64,000 nt of DNA from Methanosphaerula palustris E1-9c (GTDB lineage Archaea; Halobacteriota; Methanomicrobia; Methanomicrobiales; Methanospirillaceae). The notes under the pieces are model-generated. The model made no database searches. It saw only the letters and a list, made by a program, of their open reading frames with translations, and was not told where the DNA came from. The position numbers were made by a program, and so were the translations under genes. The stretch spans positions 372,001-436,000 of the forward strand of contig NC_011832.1 in assembly GCF_000021965.1 (NCBI RefSeq), in the 5' to 3' direction. Below, piece after piece: positions 5,809 through 42,215 of the stretch (position 1 is its first letter; each line of letters opens with the position of its first letter).

Positions 5809-6760
5809 AACACTTGTATGGGGACTTTCGACGCATGTTCCTGGCCTATATAATTCATTGATTAAAATGCGGAATTCCAGTTCTGGTGGTGCGGCAAAAT
5901 CCTCTCGATATTGTTATTCAGTCTGGTTACGTCATCTCGTTATGGCAAAAAATCACAACCTGATCAAAAAAGTACCTGAAACAATCGCTGAATTGGGACC
6001 CGGTGATTCGTTAGGAGTCGGCATAGCGGCCTTATTGTCGGGATCAAACAGATATTATGCTCTGGATGTTGTACCCCATGCAAACTTGATGCATAATATC
6101 TCTGTATTAGATGAATTAGTAAAATTATTTCAGGATCGTGAATCGATCCCGGATGATATTGAATGGCCGGACTTGTTTCCGAAACTTCACTCGTATAAAT
6201 TTCCTAAAGATATTTTAAGAGATGAAGTTATTGACGCCGCATTAAAGCCTGAACGAATTATTGCAATAAAAGATGCTTTGGTAAATTCAGGTGTCGATTC
6301 ATCAAATATTGAAATACAGTATTTTGTCCCATGGAACAATTCAGGGATTATCCAAAAAGATTCGGTAGATTTTGTTCTATCTCAGGCTGTCATGGAGCAT
6401 ATAGAAAATCTTGACGAAGCATATTCAGCAATTTTTCAATGGCTGCGTGCGGGAGGGATTTTTTCCATGGAAATTGATTTTTCAAATCATGTCATGGCAA
6501 AAAAATGGAATGAACACTGGCGGTATTCGGATTTTATATGGAATAATTTAATCTGGGGGAAACGACCGTATTCGTTAAATCGACAGCCGGCATCCATTCA
6601 TCTCTCATTGATGAATAATAATAATCTCAAAATAATATGTGATTTTCCTCAGTATAATCATTCTGGGATTAAAAGATCTGAACTTAATAAAAAATTTGAA
6701 TACATAACGGATGATGATTTATATATAAATAATACTTTTATTCAAGGTATTAAAAGGTAG
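5798..6760 (+). CDS. SAM-dependent methyltransferase, C-terminus cut by IS end
   Basis: A 320-residue class I methyltransferase fold: motif I IAELGPGDSLGVGIAALL, YYALDVVPHANL after strand 2 and VDFVLSQAVMEHIENLDEAY (motif IV and V region). It overlaps the upstream GT by 11 bases. The TAG stop at 6758-6760 lies inside the terminal repeat GGTAGCGTGCC of the adjacent insertion element (from 6756). The native C-terminus may therefore be lost and replaced by the IS sequence. Confidence 0.8.
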   Translation: MNYKTLVWGLSTHVPGLYNSLIKMRNSSSGGAAKSSRYCYSVWLRHLVMAKNHNLIKKVPETIAELGPGDSLGVGIAALLSGSNRYYALDVVPHANLMHNISVLDELVKLFQDRESIPDDIEWPDLFPKLHSYKFPKDILRDEVIDAALKPERIIAIKDALVNSGVDSSNIEIQYFVPWNNSGIIQKDSVDFVLSQAVMEHIENLDEAYSAIFQWLRAGGIFSMEIDFSNHVMAKKWNEHWRYSDFIWNNLIWGKRPYSLNRQPASIHLSLMNNNNLKIICDFPQYNHSGIKRSELNKKFEYITDDDLYINNTFIQGIKR

Positions 6761-6851
6761 CGTGCCTAAAATGATTTAAAAATAAAAATGCCCTGTATCC
6801 AACCTAGAATTGCTAGAAAGGTGAAACAGGGCCATGATACCATTATCATTT
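6756..6851 (+). repeat. IS256-type 5' terminal repeat and start fragment
   Basis: It contains GGTAGCGTGCC, then GCCCTGTATCC, then an ATG at 6834 encoding MIPLSFIEE before diverging into a short dead frame (IIPKQR, stop). It matches the ends at 8760-8854 (inverted), 12593-12685 and 17581-17680, which are the 5' ends of the other IS256-type copies in the window. Confidence 0.75.
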
Positions 6852-7028
6852 ATCGAAGAGATCATCCCAAAACAACGATGAGACCAACGGTCACAGGCTC
6901 AACCAATGAAAATACTCATCTTCATGTTTGTCTATGGCATGTTTCTGGCAGAGCAGGTTGAAGAGTTTTTAAGTTGAGGAGCCTGTTCCTAAAACTAACC
7001 AGATTATGCATTGAACTGACATTCCGCA

Positions 7029-8125
7029 CTAATTTTTCAGTCGATAATATTTTTCGCATTCAGGCCCAAGCAGCCCCAGAATTCGGTTCAAGAGATCATT
7101 GAGACCCAGTATCATCTTCTGTCTATCGTCCCCCCATGAGTATACTTGGACTTCGATTGCCCGGAAGAGGAAGAAGATCCTTTTGAGGGTCGGCTTTTGT
7201 GTTGGTCTTCGCTCCGGGTTCGGGATGGTTTCATTCCGCTCTTTGAGCGCCTTTCTGACTCTGAATTCAGCTAGGCTATAAATGAAGAGTGAGAGGGTCA
7301 TGATCATGGCCAGTGCTTCAATTTGTGTATTCTTCTTGAGGAATATCTCAGATACCCGGAACGAGTTATCCTTCAGGAATCGAAATCCACGCTCGACCTG
7401 TGCCTGATTCTTATAATTAGCCAGTAGTCTGTCGGGATCGAGGTTGAGATCATTGGTTGCCAGCACGAATCGTCCCAATTTTTTTCTTCCAGCATAGTAT
7501 CCCCTATTCGGTTCAATCTCCGCCTCGATCCGATACCCGACCTCCATCGCCTCCCCATTTCGTGGCCTTCCTCGAAGCCCATTCTTCTTTTTGGGGATCT
7601 GCTGGATATCAGATGACATGATCTGACACTCTGGATGTTCATCATACCATTGATCCAGAGCTCTCTGTGCATCCGGTTCACAGGCATATTCCTGATGCAT
7701 GATCCTGCCCTGCGATGTTCGTGCTTTCGTTATTTTCTTCTCAATCGTAGCATCAAACGTCTTTTCAATTCGTTTCTGGAGTTCACTCGACTGATAGACG
7801 ATCCAGTGTTGAGGGATACCACCGTAGTCCGAAATGACCTGCTGGTATGAATAGCGCGGATCCTCACAGTGATGGAAGGGTTCCTCGGTCTCATAGAGTT
7901 CCCGAATACCGCCAACTGGGGTTGGCACCCGGGTGATCCAGAAACTTCGGTTGAGTCTGGTGAGATTTTCAGCGCTTTAGAGCGCTGAATTGGCGATATA
8001 GTAGACCTTTCTGTCGAACTTCAAACTCTTCTGCAGGGGTTTCAATCATCGCGATAATGCTCTGTTTATCCGATTCATTCACCGAAAACGTCTGTATGAA
8101 GAGCGGGATCCCGACTTGGTTTGTC
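7029..8125 (-). pseudogene. IS1634-family transposase remnant
   Basis: The C-terminal ~300 residues (7029-7928) include QVERGFRFLKDNSFRVSEIF, the late catalytic E region of IS1634/IS4-like DDE enzymes. Reading further upstream, KVYYIANSAL is followed by an in-frame TAA at 7977-7979 (where a Tyr codon is usual) and SAENLTRL. A one-base insertion in a C-run near 8037 separates this from the preceding frame, which includes GIPLFIQTFSVNESDKQSI. The N-terminal ~170 residues are missing at the junction with IS256 sequence near 8115-8135. The gene is inactive. Confidence 0.75.
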
Positions 8126-8776
8126 GCAAGACAATCCTCGTTCTTTCATCTCATCGAAGAGCCCGGACCAGAAGGTTTCATTCTCACATGTAGCAATCCG
8201 GGCTCCCAGGATCTCTCGATATCCATCCTCCCGAACTCCGGCTGTCACCAGAAGTGCCTTGGAGACACATCTGGGTCCATCTCGGACCTTAAAATACGAT
8301 GCATCGACGTAAAGGTAAGGAATCGATCGTTCTATCGGTCGATTGAGAAAAGCCTTCACCTGATCGTCGAGATCATGTGAGATCCGTGAAACCGAGGATA
8401 GAAAGAGTTGTTTCATACCCGGATGCGCGACGATCTCCTGAACTTCTCTGGTTGAAACTCCCTATAGATACGATTGGCGATGGCGTTCATTAGTGCCTTC
8501 TCGATCCGGGCGTATCGCCCGAAGATCTGAGTCTTGAAGGGTTTTCTCCCGAAACTGATATTTTGTGAGAGTAACATCCCCGTAGCGAGTTGTGAGGGAT
8601 CGGGATCGAGAACCGTTTCGACGGCAGTTTCTCGTTGAAGTTCGTTTATAGGGATTGGCACCCACTTGTTGATAGGCTTTGAGCTGCATTATCTGGTTCA
8701 AAAACTAGGTGATGAGAATGCGCATCCCTTCGTCCTTGTCGGAAAGATAATCTTCGATAAATGATAATGGTATCAT
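8126..8776 (-). pseudogene. IS256-family (mutator) transposase, 5' part, two in-frame TAG
   Basis: The ATG at 8776 opens one uninterrupted frame except for TAG at codon 24 (8705-8707) and codon 105 (8462-8464). Around them are ILIT-TAG-FLNQIMQL and QSYL-TAG-GVSTREVQEIVAH. The downstream part has YLYVDASYFKVRDGPR (first catalytic D) and FWSGLFDEMKERGL, and is cut off at the IS1634 junction. Both TAGs recur at the same codons in the copy at 17658. No frameshift was needed. Confidence 0.8.
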
Positions 8777-8965
8777 GGCCCTGTTTCACCTTTCATGCAA
8801 TTTTAGGTTGGATACAGGGCATTTTTATTTTTACATCACTTTTGGCACGCTACCAGATCGAGCAGTGAGAGATCGTAACCGTGGTGCTGAATCAAAGCAA
8901 AGATCTGGTCAGATCTCCTCTGAGTATTGATACTGGTGAAATCGAGATTTGCTCCTTCGATTGGC

Positions 8966-10708: not shown

Positions 10709-12520
10709 ATGTTTGATAATCTGTTATTGGAAAAAAACATGGATCGAATCTCGAAATGTATCTCGATAATTGGATATATCTTCATCTGCTGTGGGACTAG
10801 TATTATTTTTTTTTATGGGCCAAGTACTAGGTACGAATTTTCTATTTACGATGTATACCCCAAATATTTTTGGGGATTATTGATTTCAGCAACATTCATA
10901 GGTCAGTTGCTCATTATTAAAGAAATCTTTAGAAAATCTGAGAAGCAATGGTGGCTACATGGTCTCATAATTATCCTTCTTTCAGACGCGATTCAACTTT
11001 TTTTACCCCTTATCAGGGGATATCATAGTACGGGCATCGGCGACGTTATGACGGAGATAGCATATATGCTCGATATCATCTATTCCGGAGTAATCGGCCA
11101 AACTAATCAATATCCTGCTGATCACTTGATTGGAGTGGTCTTCTATTGGATCTCTGGGATCTCGCTCTCGGACGTTACGATGATCATCCCGCCTATATTT
11201 TCTCTGTTCTTCATCATTTCCATGTATGTTCTCGGACGAAATCTTTTCAGTGATAGGAGGTTGCCATTTCTTATCGTTATCTTTGCTACTCCGCTCTATT
11301 TCGGCAGTTATAACGTTCATTTTTTACCAAATGCTCAAGCGATGATGTTACTGCCTTTGAATCTCTTCATATTGGCAAAGATTATTCAGGGGAACTGTGT
11401 AAAGCAATTTGTTTTCATTCTAACCGTCATGAGTATTCTCCTCGTTTTTTTTCATCCACTTATCACGGTCACGAACATCATTATTCTAATAATCGCGAAA
11501 TTAATCCAGCGCCTGATGTCAGATATGGATAAGAAGGATAAAACCAAACTCCCAATCAATTACGCTCTTCTAATTTCTTTCTGTTTTTTTGTATTATGGG
11601 AACGGGGTTTCGTGGTTGTATTGAAAGCGCCGGGTCCACTTATTTCATATCTTTTAGGAGGAGAGGGGGCATCATCAATTTATGAGAGTTACTCTAAAAC
11701 TATTTCTACAGTCTCAGTTGATATAGGATATCTCATTCGGTTAGCTTTCAACATGTATGGCCAGTACCTCGTTATGGCAATTCTCTCTCTCCTGTGCTTT
11801 GGTATCGTCCTATTCTTGATAAAAGAAAAAAGCACCGAACTTCCATTTTTTTTAATCTTTTCGATAGCCGGTTTCTTTATATTTGGTTTTATTACGTTTC
11901 TCTTATTCTTCTCCGGAATCACGTTCAATTTCGATCGGTTTTTGAAGTTGATGATGATTTTTTCGATGAGTTTGATACCGTTCACAATAATGCTAGTATT
12001 GCGTCTTCGACCATCACACTCTTGGGTGAAGATATCTATTGCGGTGGGTCTTTTCATTTGCGTGGTCATAGTGTCGTTTTTTTCTACATTCAATCTCTAC
12101 GATTCTCCATTGATCAAACAAGCAAATCAACAGGTTACCGAGAGTGAATATCAGGGGATGACAACGTTCTTCGAGATTCGAGATAATACGACCCCGATAA
12201 TAGAACATGGTCTCTATGTCTTCAGATATTATCAAGCGATCTTCGGCATAGATTCATCGCAAATACAAGATCTTTACGGAACTAATGCGATTGATCATTT
12301 TGGGTACGGCGGGAATACAACATTGGGAGGGAAATCTGGAACCCACTATTTACTGATGAATACACAGGGACGGTATGTTTACCAGAATGTATATCCCGAA
12401 TTTTCTGAGTCATGGCGGTTCACTCCAACAGATTACAATCTTTTAGATAATGATAACCAGATTCATCTAACGTATGAAAATGGGAACCTACAAGTATACA
12501 TAATTGTGAGATCATCCTGA
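10709..12520 (+). CDS. Polytopic membrane protein, GT-C-like
   Basis: 603 residues with roughly 11-13 hydrophobic segments, for example IIGYIFICCGTSIIFFYG, FWGLLISATFIGQLLII, IPPIFSLFFIISMYVLG and ISIAVGLFICVVIVSFF. The C-terminal ~120 residues are soluble (TESEYQGMTTFFEIRDN...). An acidic loop, GIGDVMTEIAYMLD, after the second or third segment is reminiscent of GT-C glycosyltransferases, but no definite catalytic motif can be named. In this locus a polyprenyl-phosphate-sugar-dependent transferase is a reasonable guess. An alternative ATG is at 10739. Confidence 0.7.
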   Translation: MFDNLLLEKNMDRISKCISIIGYIFICCGTSIIFFYGPSTRYEFSIYDVYPKYFWGLLISATFIGQLLIIKEIFRKSEKQWWLHGLIIILLSDAIQLFLPLIRGYHSTGIGDVMTEIAYMLDIIYSGVIGQTNQYPADHLIGVVFYWISGISLSDVTMIIPPIFSLFFIISMYVLGRNLFSDRRLPFLIVIFATPLYFGSYNVHFLPNAQAMMLLPLNLFILAKIIQGNCVKQFVFILTVMSILLVFFHPLITVTNIIILIIAKLIQRLMSDMDKKDKTKLPINYALLISFCFFVLWERGFVVVLKAPGPLISYLLGGEGASSIYESYSKTISTVSVDIGYLIRLAFNMYGQYLVMAILSLLCFGIVLFLIKEKSTELPFFLIFSIAGFFIFGFITFLLFFSGITFNFDRFLKLMMIFSMSLIPFTIMLVLRLRPSHSWVKISIAVGLFICVVIVSFFSTFNLYDSPLIKQANQQVTESEYQGMTTFFEIRDNTTPIIEHGLYVFRYYQAIFGIDSSQIQDLYGTNAIDHFGYGGNTTLGGKSGTHYLLMNTQGRYVYQNVYPEFSESWRFTPTDYNLLDNDNQIHLTYENGNLQVYIIVRSS

Positions 12521-16471: not shown

Positions 16472-17495
16472 TCAATAAGGGCTCTGTTGAAACCCTCTGG
16501 TACTATGATCCCACGATAAGACAAATATCTAATAAGAATCGTTGCTCCTTGAGTCAATGACAAATTCAACAACAAGGAGCAGAAATAATGTCAACGAACC
16601 GGTATATCAAACTTGTCAGATACATCTGTTCAGTACTTCGATCCTCCCATTTCCCTCTTTATTCCTGTAAATATTCTCGGAGAACGTATACTCAGCATCA
16701 GCTCATGGCGATCCTTCTCTTTCATGAAGCCCTTGGTACTGACTATCGTGATGTAGTCGAACTCATCAATCTGATGGGCAAGATCAAAGACATCCTCAAT
16801 TTGGACCAGGTTCCCCACTACTCGACCATCCATAAGTTCATGGCTCGAACTCCTTCTGCAGTACTCTCGATATTCCTGAATAAAACCCTCAAACTGTTTT
16901 ATTCCTGGGGTGAATTGTTCCAACAACTGCCATCGATTCTACGGGATTCACAAGTTCGTACGCCAGTCATTATTACTCCTGGCGTACAGGAAAGACCCGA
17001 AAAAACTTCCTGAAAACGTCGATTGCAGTAGATACATGTAAGCAGGTGATCCTCTTTTCCAAGATCTCGCTAAAACCAGTTCACGACACTAAACATGCTG
17101 AACCACTCCTCAGGCAGTGCCAGAGGACCAGAAAAACCGGGTGTTATGTGATGGATAAAGGGTACGATTCCGAGAAACTTCATCGACAGATCAGGGAAGA
17201 AATGGGTGCTGATTCGGTGATACCTGTCAGAACCTGGAAAGGAAAGATCTATTCGGGGAAATACAGACAAGAGATGTATAACAACTTCGATTCGAAACGC
17301 TATCACGAGAGAAACAAAGTTGAAACCGCATTTTCAGTCATTAAAAGAAGATTCTGAGAGGACCTCAAGGCACGAAAATATTGGTACCAGGTCAAGGAGA
17401 TCAAGGTCAAAATGATCCTCCATAACCTCACGAAGGTGGTTCAATTAGTCGTGATTGTTATCATAGTTGAAGCATTTCAACAGAGCCTCAATAAG
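16472..17495 (+). mobile_element. IS5-type insertion sequence with 8-bp target duplication
   Basis: The terminal inverted repeats GGCTCTGTTGAAA (16480-16492) and TTTCAACAGAGCC (17475-17487) delimit 1008 bp. They are flanked by the direct repeat TCAATAAG (16472-16479 and 17488-17495). An 8-bp duplication would suit the ISH1 group of the IS5 family. The transposase inside is broken. The intact target duplication shows that this copy moved here as a unit and decayed (or was already decayed) afterwards. Confidence 0.8.
16588..17487 (+). pseudogene. IS5-family (DDE_Tnp_1) transposase, frameshift and TGA
   Basis: The N-terminal 141 residues run from an ATG at 16588 (after an ACAAGGAGCAG ribosome site). 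A frameshift near 16910-16920 is required to continue as [20 protein letters not shown] (first D), [17 protein letters not shown] (second D) and [18 protein letters not shown] (E). An in-frame TGA at 17355-17357 sits where Gly (GGA) is expected before EDLKARKYW. No stop codon occurs before the right terminal repeat; the frame runs out of the element to 17603. Confidence 0.8.
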
Positions 17496-17580
17496 CTGTT
17501 AAAAGCCCTCTTCAGTTACAAACTGACTGATAATTTCAGCATAAAACGGGCTAATGAATGGATAAACCGTGATGAAGTCG

Positions 17581-18236
17581 GTAGCGTGCCAAAAGGAATG
17601 TAAAAGTAAAAAGGCTCTGAATTCCACCTAGAATTGCATGAAAGGTGAAACCGGACCATGATACCAATATCATCTATCAAAGATTATATTTCCGACAAAG
17701 ACGAAGGAATGCGCATTCTCATCACCTAGTTTTTGAACAAGGTGATGCAGATCGAAGCCCATCAGCAAGCGGGTGCTAATCTCTATGAGCGAACTGCAAC
17801 AAGAAACTGCCATCGAAACGGTTCTCGATCCCGATCCCTCACAACTCGCTACGGGGATGTTACTCTCACAAAATATCAGTTTCGGGAGAAAACCCTTCAA
17901 GACTCAGATCTTCGGGCGATACGCCCGGATCGAGAAGGCACTAATGAACGCCATCGCCAATCGTATCTATAGGGAGTTTCAACCAGAGAAGTTCAGGAGA
18001 TCGTCGCGCATCCGGGTATGAAACAACTCTTTCCATCCTCGGTTTCACGGATCTCACATGATCTCGACGATCAGGTGAAGGCTTTTCTCAATCGACCGAT
18101 AGAACGATCGATTCCTTACCTTTACGTCGATGCATTGTATTTTAAAGTTCGAAACGGGCCCAGATATATCTCAAAAGTCCCCCTGGTGACAGTTGGAGTT
18201 CGGAAGGATGGATATAGAGAGATCATGAGAGCCCAG
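17581..18236 (+). mobile_element. IS256-type element, 3'-truncated
   Basis: It begins GGTAGCGTGCC, with the same ~75-bp 5' end as at 6756 and 8854, and continues through the transposase start. The similarity to the other copy ends inside the transposase near 18236 (after YREIM), and no right terminal repeat is found before unrelated GC-rich sequence. It is an immobile remnant. Confidence 0.75.
17658..18236 (+). pseudogene. IS256-family transposase 5' part, two in-frame TAG
   Basis: The ATG at 17658 opens a single frame through MRILIT-TAG-FLNKVMQIEAHQQ (TAG at 17727-17729, codon 24) and RQSYL-TAG-GVSTREVQEIVAHP (TAG at 17970-17972, codon 105), then YLYVDALYFKVRNGPR. Apart from these two ambers and the 3' truncation it is intact. 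The ambers are at the same codons as in the copy at 8776 although other positions differ. Confidence 0.8.
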
Positions 18237-18724
18237 ATCCAGTATCAGTGGCTTTCCCGAAGGAGATACGTATGACTATCCCTGGTGTGGGCTATCTCGA
18301 TCTCCTCAGGTGTTCGAACTGGCGTAGGTCCTGAATTCCGAAGGGACCAAAGGAGCCGGCACCGCTGAACCCGGCCAGCGTGACACCCGGCGAGGTCTCC
18401 GGTCTCTCGATCCAGCACCGATGGGATGCCGGCCCCTTCGAGCGCATCGACGACGGTCAGGATCTGCCGGCCAGGCCGGCCCCCCGGATCCCGTCCGCAA
18501 TACCACCACCGTTACCCTTAAGAGTGCCGGCCGGATTTGTGATTTTGTCAAACTGATCCGAACATGTTTTGCCGGTTTTTTGGAAGATCGGTCTCGCCGT
18601 CCCGGACGAGATCCTCGCTTCTTTTCCCCCGGAAACCGGCAATTTTTTGGTGAAAATATTTTGGTCCAGAAAGGACATTCTCCCGCTGAACTCAGGTATA
18701 TGCAAAAGTGCGGGTAATAGTTGA
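18237..18724. other. Gene-free GC-rich stretch
   Basis: No start-to-stop gene with a recognisable product is visible. Minus-strand frames such as ILTVVDALEGAGIPSVLDRE and, after a shift, GVTLAGFSGAGSFGPFG look gene-like but are broken, so 18300-18470 may be debris of an unidentified gene. Confidence 0.4.
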
Positions 18725-19109: not shown

Positions 19110-19499
19110 ATGTCAGCAAAAACAGTCGTTGATCCTGGTGCAGAGCCGGTCTATGCATACCTCAGACGAAGTGCCATCGAACATGAAGCAGTCTCTCGTC
19201 TGCGGGAACTCGGGTACAGGGTGATCCGGACCGACGGCCGCTACCCGGGCGTGAACCTGATCGCGATGAAGGGCGACCATTTCAGGTTCGTCTGCATCAG
19301 GCGACGAAAGATGCCGGCCGGCTCCCTCGCTGAGGTTGCCGCGACGTATGCAGAGGATCAGTATGAACTCCGGCGGTACATCTCGCCGATCGTCGCCGCC
19401 GATCTCTGGATCTGGTCCATGGCGGACCAGTGGCGGTACTTCGCCGTCTACCCCGGTGGAATTCAGGAGATAGGTGAGAACGATGAACACCGGCTCTGA
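19110..19499 (+). CDS. Restriction-endonuclease-fold-like small protein, degenerate active site
   Basis: 129 residues. The pattern IEHEAVSRLRELGYRVIRTD, then PGVNLIAMKGDHFRFVCIRRRK, and later ELRRYISP and DLWIWSMADQWRYFAVYPGG resembles small archaeal PD-(D/E)XK (VRR/Hjc-like) proteins. In those proteins the core reads G-x-D-L-I-A ... (E/Q)-x-K. Here the metal-binding Asp is Asn (GVNLIA) and the E-x-K position reads C-I-R, so catalysis is doubtful. The fold call is inference from the pattern. The gene overlaps the PrimPol gene by 17 bases, suggesting a functional pairing. Confidence 0.55.
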   Translation: MSAKTVVDPGAEPVYAYLRRSAIEHEAVSRLRELGYRVIRTDGRYPGVNLIAMKGDHFRFVCIRRRKMPAGSLAEVAATYAEDQYELRRYISPIVAADLWIWSMADQWRYFAVYPGGIQEIGENDEHRL

Positions 19500-22400
19500 G
19501 ATCCGGCGGGGTCTCGAGGTGCTGGTCGCTCCCGGTCAGGTCTTCGAGGTCCGGAGCTGGACGGGCGATCGCATCGCCTCTGGTTACTTCGACGACCTCG
19601 ATACCGCCGGGAAGGCGATCGAAGCACTCGACGCGGCGAACCCAGACGGGATCTACCTGACCCCGAACCCGGTGCTGCCCGACCTCCTGGCGAGGCGGGC
19701 GAACCGGATCAAGGGACCGCTCGCCAAGAAGGACTCCTCGACGAGCGATGGCGATATCCTGAGCCGGCGCTGGTTCCTGATCGACATCGACCCGGCCCGG
19801 CCATCCGGGGTCTCCTCATCCGATGAGGAACATCAGGCAGCGCTGGACCGGGCGACTGAGATCGCGGCAGCCCTGGGCGAGAGGGGCTGGCCAGCCCCGG
19901 TCGCCGGCGATTCCGGCAACGGTGCTCACCTCCTGTACCGGGTGGACCTCCCGAACGACGAGCAGGTGACGGCGCTGATCAGGGCCGCCCTGGTCGGACT
20001 CGACGGTCTCTTCTCCGATGCGAGGGCCTCCGTCGATACAGCCGTCTTCAATGCGAGCCGGATCTGGAAAGTCTACGGAACCGTCGCAAGAAAGGGTGAC
20101 AACACCAGATCCCGACCACACCGACGGAGCCGGCTGCTGTCGATGCCGGACCCGATCGCGATCGTGACACGGGAGCAGCTCGCAGCCCTGGCGATCACCG
20201 ATCCAGGAGGAGACACAGCAGCGCCGGCACCCTCGAACAGGGGGACCAGCCGCCAGGTTGGCGAGAAGATCGACCTGGCCGGCTGGCTCCGGGACCACGA
20301 CCTCGGTGTCATCGACCGCCGGCCCTACCGGGGCGGCGATCTCTACCGACTCGACGCCTGTCCGTTCTCATCAGCCCACACCGACGGGGCGTTTGCGATC
20401 CAGTTCGCGAGCGGGGCAATCCATGCCGGCTGCCATCACGCCTCGTGCGGCGGCGGGTCGCAGCGGTGGCCCGAACTCCGGGAGATGTACGAGAAGCCGA
20501 AGGTCTCCGCCATAACCCCTGAAGAGAAGGGGGCGGCCTACAGAAAGAAGAAGGCTACAGCGAGAGAGGCGGTGGCCGGCCGGGATGACGCAGCACCGGT
20601 TGAGACCGATGCAGCAGATGAAGCGGTCCTGGCCGAGGCCCGGCAGATCCTGGAGACCGGCGACCCGCTCGCGTACATGGTCGACACGTTCAACCTTGAG
20701 CACGTCGGTGATCGGGACCTGGCTCACTGCCTGGCTCTCTCTCTTGCGTCCCGCCTGGTCGCAACATCCGAAGGGCTGCACGTCATGACGACCGGTGAGT
20801 CGGGCAAGGGGAAGAGCGACGGCTACCGGGTGATGCTCAGGCAGCTCCCCGACGCGTGGAAGATCAAGGGCTCGTTCTCCGACAAATCCCTCTATTACAT
20901 GGGTGAGTCCCTGAAGCCCCAGACGGTCTTTCTCATCGACGACAAGGACCTCTCAGACTCCCTTCAGGAAGTGCTCAAGGAAGCCACTACTGATTTCAGA
21001 AAACCGATCGAACATCGCACCGTCACGACAGATAGAAAACCACAGATTTGTTACATCCCGGAGCGCTGCATCTGGTGGATTGCCAGGGTCGAAGGAGTCG
21101 GCGACGACCAGGTCAAAAACCGGATGCTCATGCCATGGGTCGACGACTCCGATGAACAGGATCGGGCTGTCCTGGCCGGCATTCTTGAGCGTCTGGCCCG
21201 GGACGAAGACGAACCGATCGGTGAGCTGCACGAGATCGCAGTCTGTAAGGCACTGTGGACGATCCTTCAGAGCGTCGGACTGGTCGACGTCAACCTCTCC
21301 CGGTTTGCGCTCAGGATCCATTTCTCATCTGCCCGGAACCGGCGCAACTCCCGGATGTTGACTGACATGATCCAGTCCGCAGCCATGCTCAGATATTTCC
21401 AGCGGGACCGCCGGGACCTGCAGGACGGCATAACCCGGATATACGCCACCGAGGACGACTTCAGGACCGCGGCGGCCATCTTCACGGCCCTGCATACGGT
21501 ATCTGGGTCGCAGGACGCGAAACTGACCCGGCGGGAGGATGATGTTCTGCGGTTGCTCGCGGCGACCGGGGAGACGGAGTTTACCGTACAGAAGATCATG
21601 AACCTGACGAAACTCTCGTACGATTCGGTCCGCAGAATGCTGGTCGGATACGGAGACCGGGGCATCCATCGCCCTGGACTCCTGGAGAAGTGCCCGGCGA
21701 TTGCAAAGATGGATACGTCGGTCAGCATACGGGATGAGGACGACGACAGAACGGTCCGGACGATCCATCGGCGCGAGACCACGTTTTCCTTCGACCTGCA
21801 GGTCTACCGGCGCTGGCAGACCGGCGGTCAGGTGGTCTGGCTGGACGAGCCCGGAGACCGGGACCGGGATCCCGATCCGCGGTCGAACACTTGTCAGCAG
21901 CATCAGCAGCATATACGCAGCATAAACGCAGTTTCAACTGCGACCATAAAAACCGACAATCCGGCCCTTTCTGCGGAAACGGATGATAAATCATTATGCG
22001 TACAAAGAGAAGGATCGTTAAACGCAGCAGAAATGAAGAGCACGCACCCCGCACCCTCACCGGAAGGAAGGGTGTGTGCGGGTGTGTGTGTTCCTGAAAA
22101 AAACTGCGACCTAACATCAAATACTGGTATCCGCAACCTGATTCAAAAACAGGGCCGGCAATCACCTCCAAAAGTCAGCAGCAAAAACTGCAAAGATGCT
22201 GCGACCACCTGCAAAGACTGCGGAGATGCTGCGGTCACCAGTATGGCAGGCGGTGAACCGGCACGGCCGGCCCCACCACTGACCCTCGCCCAGGTGAACC
22301 CGGGTGACTACTCCCTGATCCCGGGCGGTCCCCTGATCGAGCCGTGCCCGGTCTGCGGTGGCCGGGTGGTCCACTACACCGAACGCTACCAGGCCCGGAA

Positions 22401-22659
22401 GGCCCGGGGTCCAAAGGAGAAGAGCCGGAATATCTGCCGGGGCTGCTATAACCGGGCCCGGGCCTGTGAGCAGGCCGCCATCCAGGTCCTGCCGGGTGTG
22501 ATCCCGCTGGACGAGGTTGAGTCGGTCGATGCTGGCCTCTTCGGCCGGTGCTCAGTCTGCGGGCTCCAGGCGGCAACATACAACCACGCCGGCAGCGGGA
22601 CCGGGATCTGCTCGGTCTGTTATGAGAAACTGGTGAGAGAGCAGGTGGATATTCGATAA
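19483..22659 (+). CDS. PrimPol primase/SF3-like helicase fusion with zinc ribbons
   Basis: 1058 residues. The ATG at 19483 is preferred to a GTG nine bases earlier on AGGAGA/GGTGAG spacing. N-terminal AEP primase signatures are LIDIDPARP (metal-binding DxD, ~100-106), GDSGNGAHLL (~142-151) and NASRIWKVYGTVARKG (~190-205). A Cys/His cluster lies at ~293-322 (ACPF..., GCHHASCGG). A P-loop TGESGKGKSD (~437-446) and Walker B VFLIDDKD (~482-489) follow, then a winged-helix-like region and two CxxC zinc ribbons near the end. Such proteins initiate replication of archaeal plasmids and viruses. Confidence 0.8.
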   Translation: MNTGSEIRRGLEVLVAPGQVFEVRSWTGDRIASGYFDDLDTAGKAIEALDAANPDGIYLTPNPVLPDLLARRANRIKGPLAKKDSSTSDGDILSRRWFLIDIDPARPSGVSSSDEEHQAALDRATEIAAALGERGWPAPVAGDSGNGAHLLYRVDLPNDEQVTALIRAALVGLDGLFSDARASVDTAVFNASRIWKVYGTVARKGDNTRSRPHRRSRLLSMPDPIAIVTREQLAALAITDPGGDTAAPAPSNRGTSRQVGEKIDLAGWLRDHDLGVIDRRPYRGGDLYRLDACPFSSAHTDGAFAIQFASGAIHAGCHHASCGGGSQRWPELREMYEKPKVSAITPEEKGAAYRKKKATAREAVAGRDDAAPVETDAADEAVLAEARQILETGDPLAYMVDTFNLEHVGDRDLAHCLALSLASRLVATSEGLHVMTTGESGKGKSDGYRVMLRQLPDAWKIKGSFSDKSLYYMGESLKPQTVFLIDDKDLSDSLQEVLKEATTDFRKPIEHRTVTTDRKPQICYIPERCIWWIARVEGVGDDQVKNRMLMPWVDDSDEQDRAVLAGILERLARDEDEPIGELHEIAVCKALWTILQSVGLVDVNLSRFALRIHFSSARNRRNSRMLTDMIQSAAMLRYFQRDRRDLQDGITRIYATEDDFRTAAAIFTALHTVSGSQDAKLTRREDDVLRLLAATGETEFTVQKIMNLTKLSYDSVRRMLVGYGDRGIHRPGLLEKCPAIAKMDTSVSIRDEDDDRTVRTIHRRETTFSFDLQVYRRWQTGGQVVWLDEPGDRDRDPDPRSNTCQQHQQHIRSINAVSTATIKTDNPALSAETDDKSLCVQREGSLNAAEMKSTHPAPSPEGRVCAGVCVPEKNCDLTSNTGIRNLIQKQGRQSPPKVSSKNCKDAATTCKDCGDAAVTSMAGGEPARPAPPLTLAQVNPGDYSLIPGGPLIEPCPVCGGRVVHYTERYQARKARGPKEKSRNICRGCYNRARACEQAAIQVLPGVIPLDEVESVDAGLFGRCSVCGLQAATYNHAGSGTGICSVCYEKLVREQVDIR

Positions 22660-41840: not shown

Positions 41841-42215
41841 ATGGCTACTAAGATCCTGGACTCACTCCTTGGCAAGTCTACACTTCCGAAAGAGGATGAT
41901 TATATGGAACTCGACCTGGCATCGTTCGAGGCATCCTCTGATGAAGAACCTGCGTCCCTGTATGTGAAGATCGCAGGTGTGAGCAGCCTCAAAGATACCC
42001 CGAAGATCAAGGATGAGATCTATAATGGGAACATTGTGATCGTCGACATCGCACAGTTGAAGCTCGACAAGGTCACCTATGAACGTGTCTTAAAAGACCT
42101 CAAAGAGGTCGCAAAGGATGTGAACGGGGATATCGTTGGACTTGGAGACCAGCGATATGTGGTGGTCACCCCGATGTCTGTCAAGATCTCCCGTGAGAAG
42201 ATTGGGGGGCAGTAG
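41841..42215 (+). CDS. sepF: Archaeal SepF cell-division protein
   Basis: 124 residues. An amphipathic N-terminus (MATKILDSLLGK) anchors it to the membrane. The SepF core has SLYVKIAGVSSLKDTPKIKD, NGNIVIVDIAQLKLDKVTYE and a final QRYVVVTPMSVKISR. It tethers FtsZ to the membrane at mid-cell. An AT-rich TATA-like TTAAATAA (~41812) about 27 bp before the ATG suggests a leaderless or very short leader mRNA. It uses TAG as a genuine stop (42213-42215). Confidence 0.92.
   Translation: MATKILDSLLGKSTLPKEDDYMELDLASFEASSDEEPASLYVKIAGVSSLKDTPKIKDEIYNGNIVIVDIAQLKLDKVTYERVLKDLKEVAKDVNGDIVGLGDQRYVVVTPMSVKISREKIGGQ

Follow-up and report, generated by a model that had tools for sequence, protein, structure and literature searches.

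One question that is raised by a 64,000-nucleotide stretch of Methanosphaerula palustris E1-9c DNA (NC_011832.1, positions 372,001 to 436,000; here called the window) is why two copies of an IS256-type transposase gene carry an in-frame TAG at exactly the same two codons, 24 and 105. A preliminary description of the window offered two options: both copies could come from a parent that was already dead, or the amber codon could be read through, as with pyrrolysine. It took the reading frames to be continuous apart from the ambers. In the following, copy A is the frame that starts at 17658 on the plus strand and copy B the one that starts at 8776 on the minus strand; copies C (~2768 kb) and D (~1734 kb) lie elsewhere in the same genome and both are broken. 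The ambers were located in both frames, and the features are:

17580–18239, plus strand: copy A, an IS256-type element of which only the 5' half is present, with the left end (GGTAGCGTGCC...), the leader and transposase codons 1-194, the right side being truncated
8132–8854, minus strand: copy B, the 5' half of the same element as copy A (codons 1-215), truncated
17727–17729, plus strand: codon 24 of copy A, TAG here and TGG (Trp) in most intact relatives as well as in C and D
8705–8707, minus strand: codon 24 of copy B, likewise TAG
17970–17972, plus strand: codon 105 of copy A, TAG here and in copy C; copy D and nearly all intact relatives have CAG (Gln)
8462–8464, minus strand: codon 105 of copy B, likewise TAG

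The assignment of both copies to the IS256 type is borne out by the PF00872 profile (Transposase_mut, IS256/Mutator), which matches them in the raw genome with 130 and 160.6 bits against a gathering cut-off of 21, each match being flagged with two TAGs; a frame-corrected read scores 158 bits. Homology to a 375 amino acid relative stops at residue 194 in copy A and 215 in copy B, about half the length, and the right ends are absent from both. Neither copy encodes a full-length transposase with a complete catalytic region, and A and B are remnants rather than working members of the family. Copy B is followed by the remnant of a DDE_Tnp_1 transposase (7029-7928), which is unrelated to IS256.

Among the Methanomicrobiales, IS256/Mutator transposases with the PF00872 domain are homologous to A and B along codons 1-215. 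Relatives were found in 46 of 150 genomes of the order, many of them intact (369-412 amino acids, without stops), and one genome holds ~20 near-identical copies. Intact copies are common in sister genera, the named relatives belonging mainly to Methanoculleus and Methanoregula, and the closest intact ones, which come from other genera, are 66-69% identical to the frame-corrected read. In M. palustris itself (one contig, 2,922,917 bases) no full-length intact member was found, all 11 PF00872 pieces being partial. The intact relatives with TGG or CAG at the amber positions, which the preliminary description had asked for, are present in other genomes, not in this one. Codon 24 is TGG in 14 of the 21 relatives that cover it, with GGG, TCG, ACT or TTC in the others. 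Codon 105, within SYLQGVSTR, is CAG or CAA in 20 of 22 relatives (CAA in one). Each amber is a single transition away from sense, as the preliminary description had guessed. Where the intact relatives have open frames of ~369-412 amino acids with mostly TGG and CAG at these positions, A and B break off after 194 and 215 codons and carry two stops and two frameshifts.

These frameshifts are the part of the damage that the preliminary description did not detect, and they contradict its view of an otherwise continuous frame. Both indels, present in both copies, are visible in the alignment against copies C and D and against the intact relatives:

17889–17892, plus strand (copy B, 8545-8542): one extra A, a +1 frameshift at codon 77 of copy A; the AAA that follows FRE in C and D is AAAA here
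17958–17959, plus strand (copy B, 8476/8475): -1 frameshift at ~codon 100 of copy A, where the loss of a G turns GCC-GAA into GCC-AA (GCCAATCG in place of GCCGAATCG)

Codons ~78-100 are out of frame, since they are flanked by the +1 and the -1 indel: frame 1 reads TLQDSDLRAIRPDREGTNERHRQ in both copies and PFETQVFGRYARVEKALVNAIVE in the intact relatives. The break escaped the first reading because the out-of-frame stretch contains no stop. An open frame in raw sequence can therefore conceal two compensating frameshifts, and even full suppression of both ambers would yield a garbled half protein. We also considered whether TAG105 might be an out-of-frame artefact of these indels. This was rejected: the relatives (YLQGVSTR) show that the frame is restored ~5 codons earlier, so that codon 105 has genuinely changed from CAG to TAG. 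Nor are the two TAGs deletion junctions relative to C and D, as the intact relatives show that it is C and D that carry insertions.

Two TAGs are not an exceptional burden for such a gene. At 17 loci in other genomes, decayed copies have TAG, TGA and TAA scattered over their codons, with TAG and TGA making up most of the stops (the printed stop tally for decayed copies also counted A to D), and against this background the two TAGs of A and B are unremarkable. None of the decayed copies elsewhere has a stop at codon 24, and one has a stop at codon 105, adjoining an insert that is described below. The identical positions in A and B need no calculation of chance, because the copies are homologous and share a long tract with a single mismatch:

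17813–18135, plus strand (partner 8621-8299, minus strand): 323-bp tract, one mismatch between A and B, gene-conversion-like

No run between the copies with one mismatch or none is longer than this tract; when placements were randomised 10,000 times, such a run reached 160 at most. On its 5' side (17580-17812) the copies differ at 32 of 233 bp (14%), and on its 3' side (18136-18236) at 21 of 101 bp (21%). The tract covers codon 105 and both indels. Codon 24 is outside it, in a stretch (17709-17738) that is itself free of mismatches between A and B. In the 5' segment with codon 24, pN/pS is 0.58 against a neutral median of 0.68, and constraint is not visible; in the 3' segment (codons 161-193) it is 0.35, a value as low as that being reached in 4% of neutral simulations, which indicates mild constraint. 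When the two segments were pooled the test suggested selection; after they were split, only the 3' segment shows constraint. As this segment is mildly constrained, A and B are mosaics, whose 3' parts probably diverged partly while functional.

The account that fits these data almost certainly is that A and B are dead, truncated IS256 pseudogenes in which TAG24 looks ancestral, TAG105 and the indels were probably homogenised by conversion, and TAG is a stop. A common ancestor of A and B would have acquired the TGG to TAG change at codon 24. The CAG to TAG change at codon 105 and the two nearly compensating indels at codons 77 (+1) and ~100 (-1) would have arisen in one copy or in the ancestor, and gene conversion between the inverted copies, ~9 kb apart, would then have homogenised the 323 bp that hold them; codon 105 and both indels are thus probably common to A and B through conversion. 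The amber at codon 24 looks inherited and older than the divergence of A and B, because it lies outside the tract in a 14%-diverged segment without visible constraint. TAG in these copies is an ordinary stop, and a product past residue 23 is not expected. The preliminary idea of shared inherited damage is supported for codon 24; for codon 105 and the indels, a later gene conversion explains the sharing at least as well. Two points weigh against this account. TAG105 is also found in copy C and in one copy from another family (G088), a hint of recurrence or of a more complex history. Codon 24, being outside the tract, calls either for common descent of older date or for another short conversion, which is possible in view of the mismatch-free stretch at 17709-17738.

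One alternative is that A and B were inserted separately while still intact, and that repeated gene conversion between them spread all of the shared lesions. The conversion-like tract does carry codon 105 and both indels, and the diverged 3' segment is under mild constraint, as would fit two copies that were once functional. It has to explain codon 24 by a second, very short conversion, however, and we consider it possible but rather unlikely. Another hypothesis, less likely again, is that a parent that was already dead, with both ambers in it, gave rise to the two copies through a transposase acting in trans, without any later conversion. Related elements look active elsewhere in the order (many near-identical intact copies, for example in G003), and the codon 24 amber, common to A and B in a 14%-diverged segment, would predate that divergence. 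Yet a single duplication does not give one mismatch in 323 bp between flanks that are 14% and 21% diverged, the PF00872 profile search found no intact helper in the genome, and the right ends, by which insertion events and a target-site duplication could be traced, are lost in both copies. A and B resemble ordinary decayed IS copies whose repeats have undergone gene conversion, in having stops, indels, truncation and a high-identity patch; nothing notable sets them apart from such copies. They illustrate how two homologous pseudogenes can come to have stops in common, by descent and by gene conversion.

The surroundings of codon 105 raise a further option. In copies C and D, codons 106 and 107 are separated by a 32-nt insert that shifts the frame and contains a short inverted repeat (core GTCGAGAAAATCTCTGATTTTCGC). 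The identical insert, in the identical position, is found in G088, G063, G116, G110 and G103, from three other families, which makes six genomes with this one; the loci are L145 (G088), L143 (G063), L144 (G116), L141 (G110), L155 (G103), L156 (D) and L165 (C), and it sits near the middle of each. The host copies span at least three IS256 lineages and four families and do not form a single clade. The N-terminal part of the G088 copy is 98% identical to relatives without the insert and 87.5% identical to the insert-bearing G063, and G103 and G110 form a subgroup that is only ~40-65% identical to the other insert-bearers. The insert may have arisen by recurrent insertion at one site or spread by recombination, and it is possibly a site-specific mini-element. 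TAG at codon 105 adjoins the insert in two cases, copy C and G088; apart from TAG105 and the insert, the frame of the G088 copy is open. The codon 105 site could then be a recurrent target of the hairpin, and A and B, with TAG and without the insert, could be products of excision or conversion that derive from copies with the insert; we regard this as very improbable. What is of wider value here is a small hairpin insert that turns up repeatedly at a single site in IS256 transposase genes.

Motifs of 24 nt that are related to the hairpin occur as dispersed repeats, with 3 to 22 per genome at up to three mismatches, apparently mostly in intergenic DNA, in several genomes of genus g15 (G015, G045, G033, G039, G021, G067, G057 and G051; L146-L169). 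Their stem shows some paired changes (GAAAATC/GATTTTC and GAAGATC/GATCTTC). The predicted RNA fold of the insert is not clearly more stable than that of shuffled sequence, and a scan of viral_contigs for the 32-nt motif found none. Copies C and D carry another insertion, after codon 24, a ~76-bp dispersed repeat (TATGAAAATCGGGAACTCGCCGGTTCCCCCCGAAATTTTCATC...GTGTCT) with what looks like a short GTTT(T) duplication on either side. Sites of this repeat in the genome (L117-L121 of G000) are 1734031-1734121, 1150222-1150304, 1471947-1472031, 2199887-2199968 and 2768758-2768807.

The last option is that the amber is read, by pyrrolysine or by a suppressor tRNA, so that the copies make a full transposase. 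There is a precedent: in transposases of Methanosarcina for which such reading was proposed, an in-frame amber is conserved (PMC2933860, PMC3639795), and one such family is reported in PMC2933860. A and B resemble these in being methanogen transposases with a TAG at a shared codon, and within the matched part neither has an in-frame stop other than TAG. The literature search that returned this precedent gave nothing on copies A and B. However, Methanosarcina has pyl genes, and of those searched for none were found in M. palustris. The PylS C-terminal model has a cut-off of 178 bits, and its best match in the genome scored 26.7; matches were obtained in 13 of 14 control genomes too, of which only M. 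acetivorans exceeded the cut-off. The PylS N-terminal model has no match in the genome, M. acetivorans being the only control that matched. A profile search for PylD, the one of pylBCD that was searched, gave no match. The sole match to a pylT pattern, with three mismatches allowed, falls in a tRNA-Glu. None of the 50 tRNAs typed by ARAGORN (51 Rfam tRNA matches) has a CTA anticodon, in a set with no tRNA-Trp or tRNA-Tyr, so that intron-bearing tRNAs may have gone undetected. As a normal terminator in this genome, TAG ends sepF (41841-42215), as had been noted before, and 2 of the 19 larger frames in the window.

The frames themselves are not open and constrained on both sides of the TAG, given the two indels, the truncation and the lack of visible constraint around codon 24. 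With PylS, PylD, a pylT-like sequence and a CUA tRNA not found in the genome, TGG and CAG in the intact relatives from other genomes, codons ~78-100 out of frame and the second half of the enzyme missing, read-through has practically no chance of being correct. Decoding is refuted by the criterion that the preliminary description had set, no decoding machinery together with an intact copy free of the ambers, such copies being found here in other genomes. Ordinary gene decay explains A and B; amber decoding is not supported, and one possible case of amber recoding outside the pyrrolysine users is removed.

Several other features of the window and genome were seen along the way. Two further pieces of the same IS256 family lie in the window:

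6756–6859, plus strand: left-end fragment, leader only, 83% identity
12593–12684, plus strand: left-end fragment, leader only, 83% identity

Both sit in a region of glycosyltransferase and polysaccharide genes that is rich in IS remnants, among them an IS5-like piece at 16588-17013 and the DDE_Tnp_1 piece at 7029-7928. Two long frames of the window, 10709-12520 (603 amino acids) and 19474-22659 (1061 amino acids), had no Pfam match at 1e-3. Among the 51 tRNA matches in the genome eight are tRNA-Cys (GCA) genes (L060, L061, L065, L072, L074, L075, L076 and L082 of G000), which is unusually many. Three of them lie ~3.2 kb from a tRNA-Thr (TGT) gene, at a constant spacing, and perhaps lie around rRNA operons.
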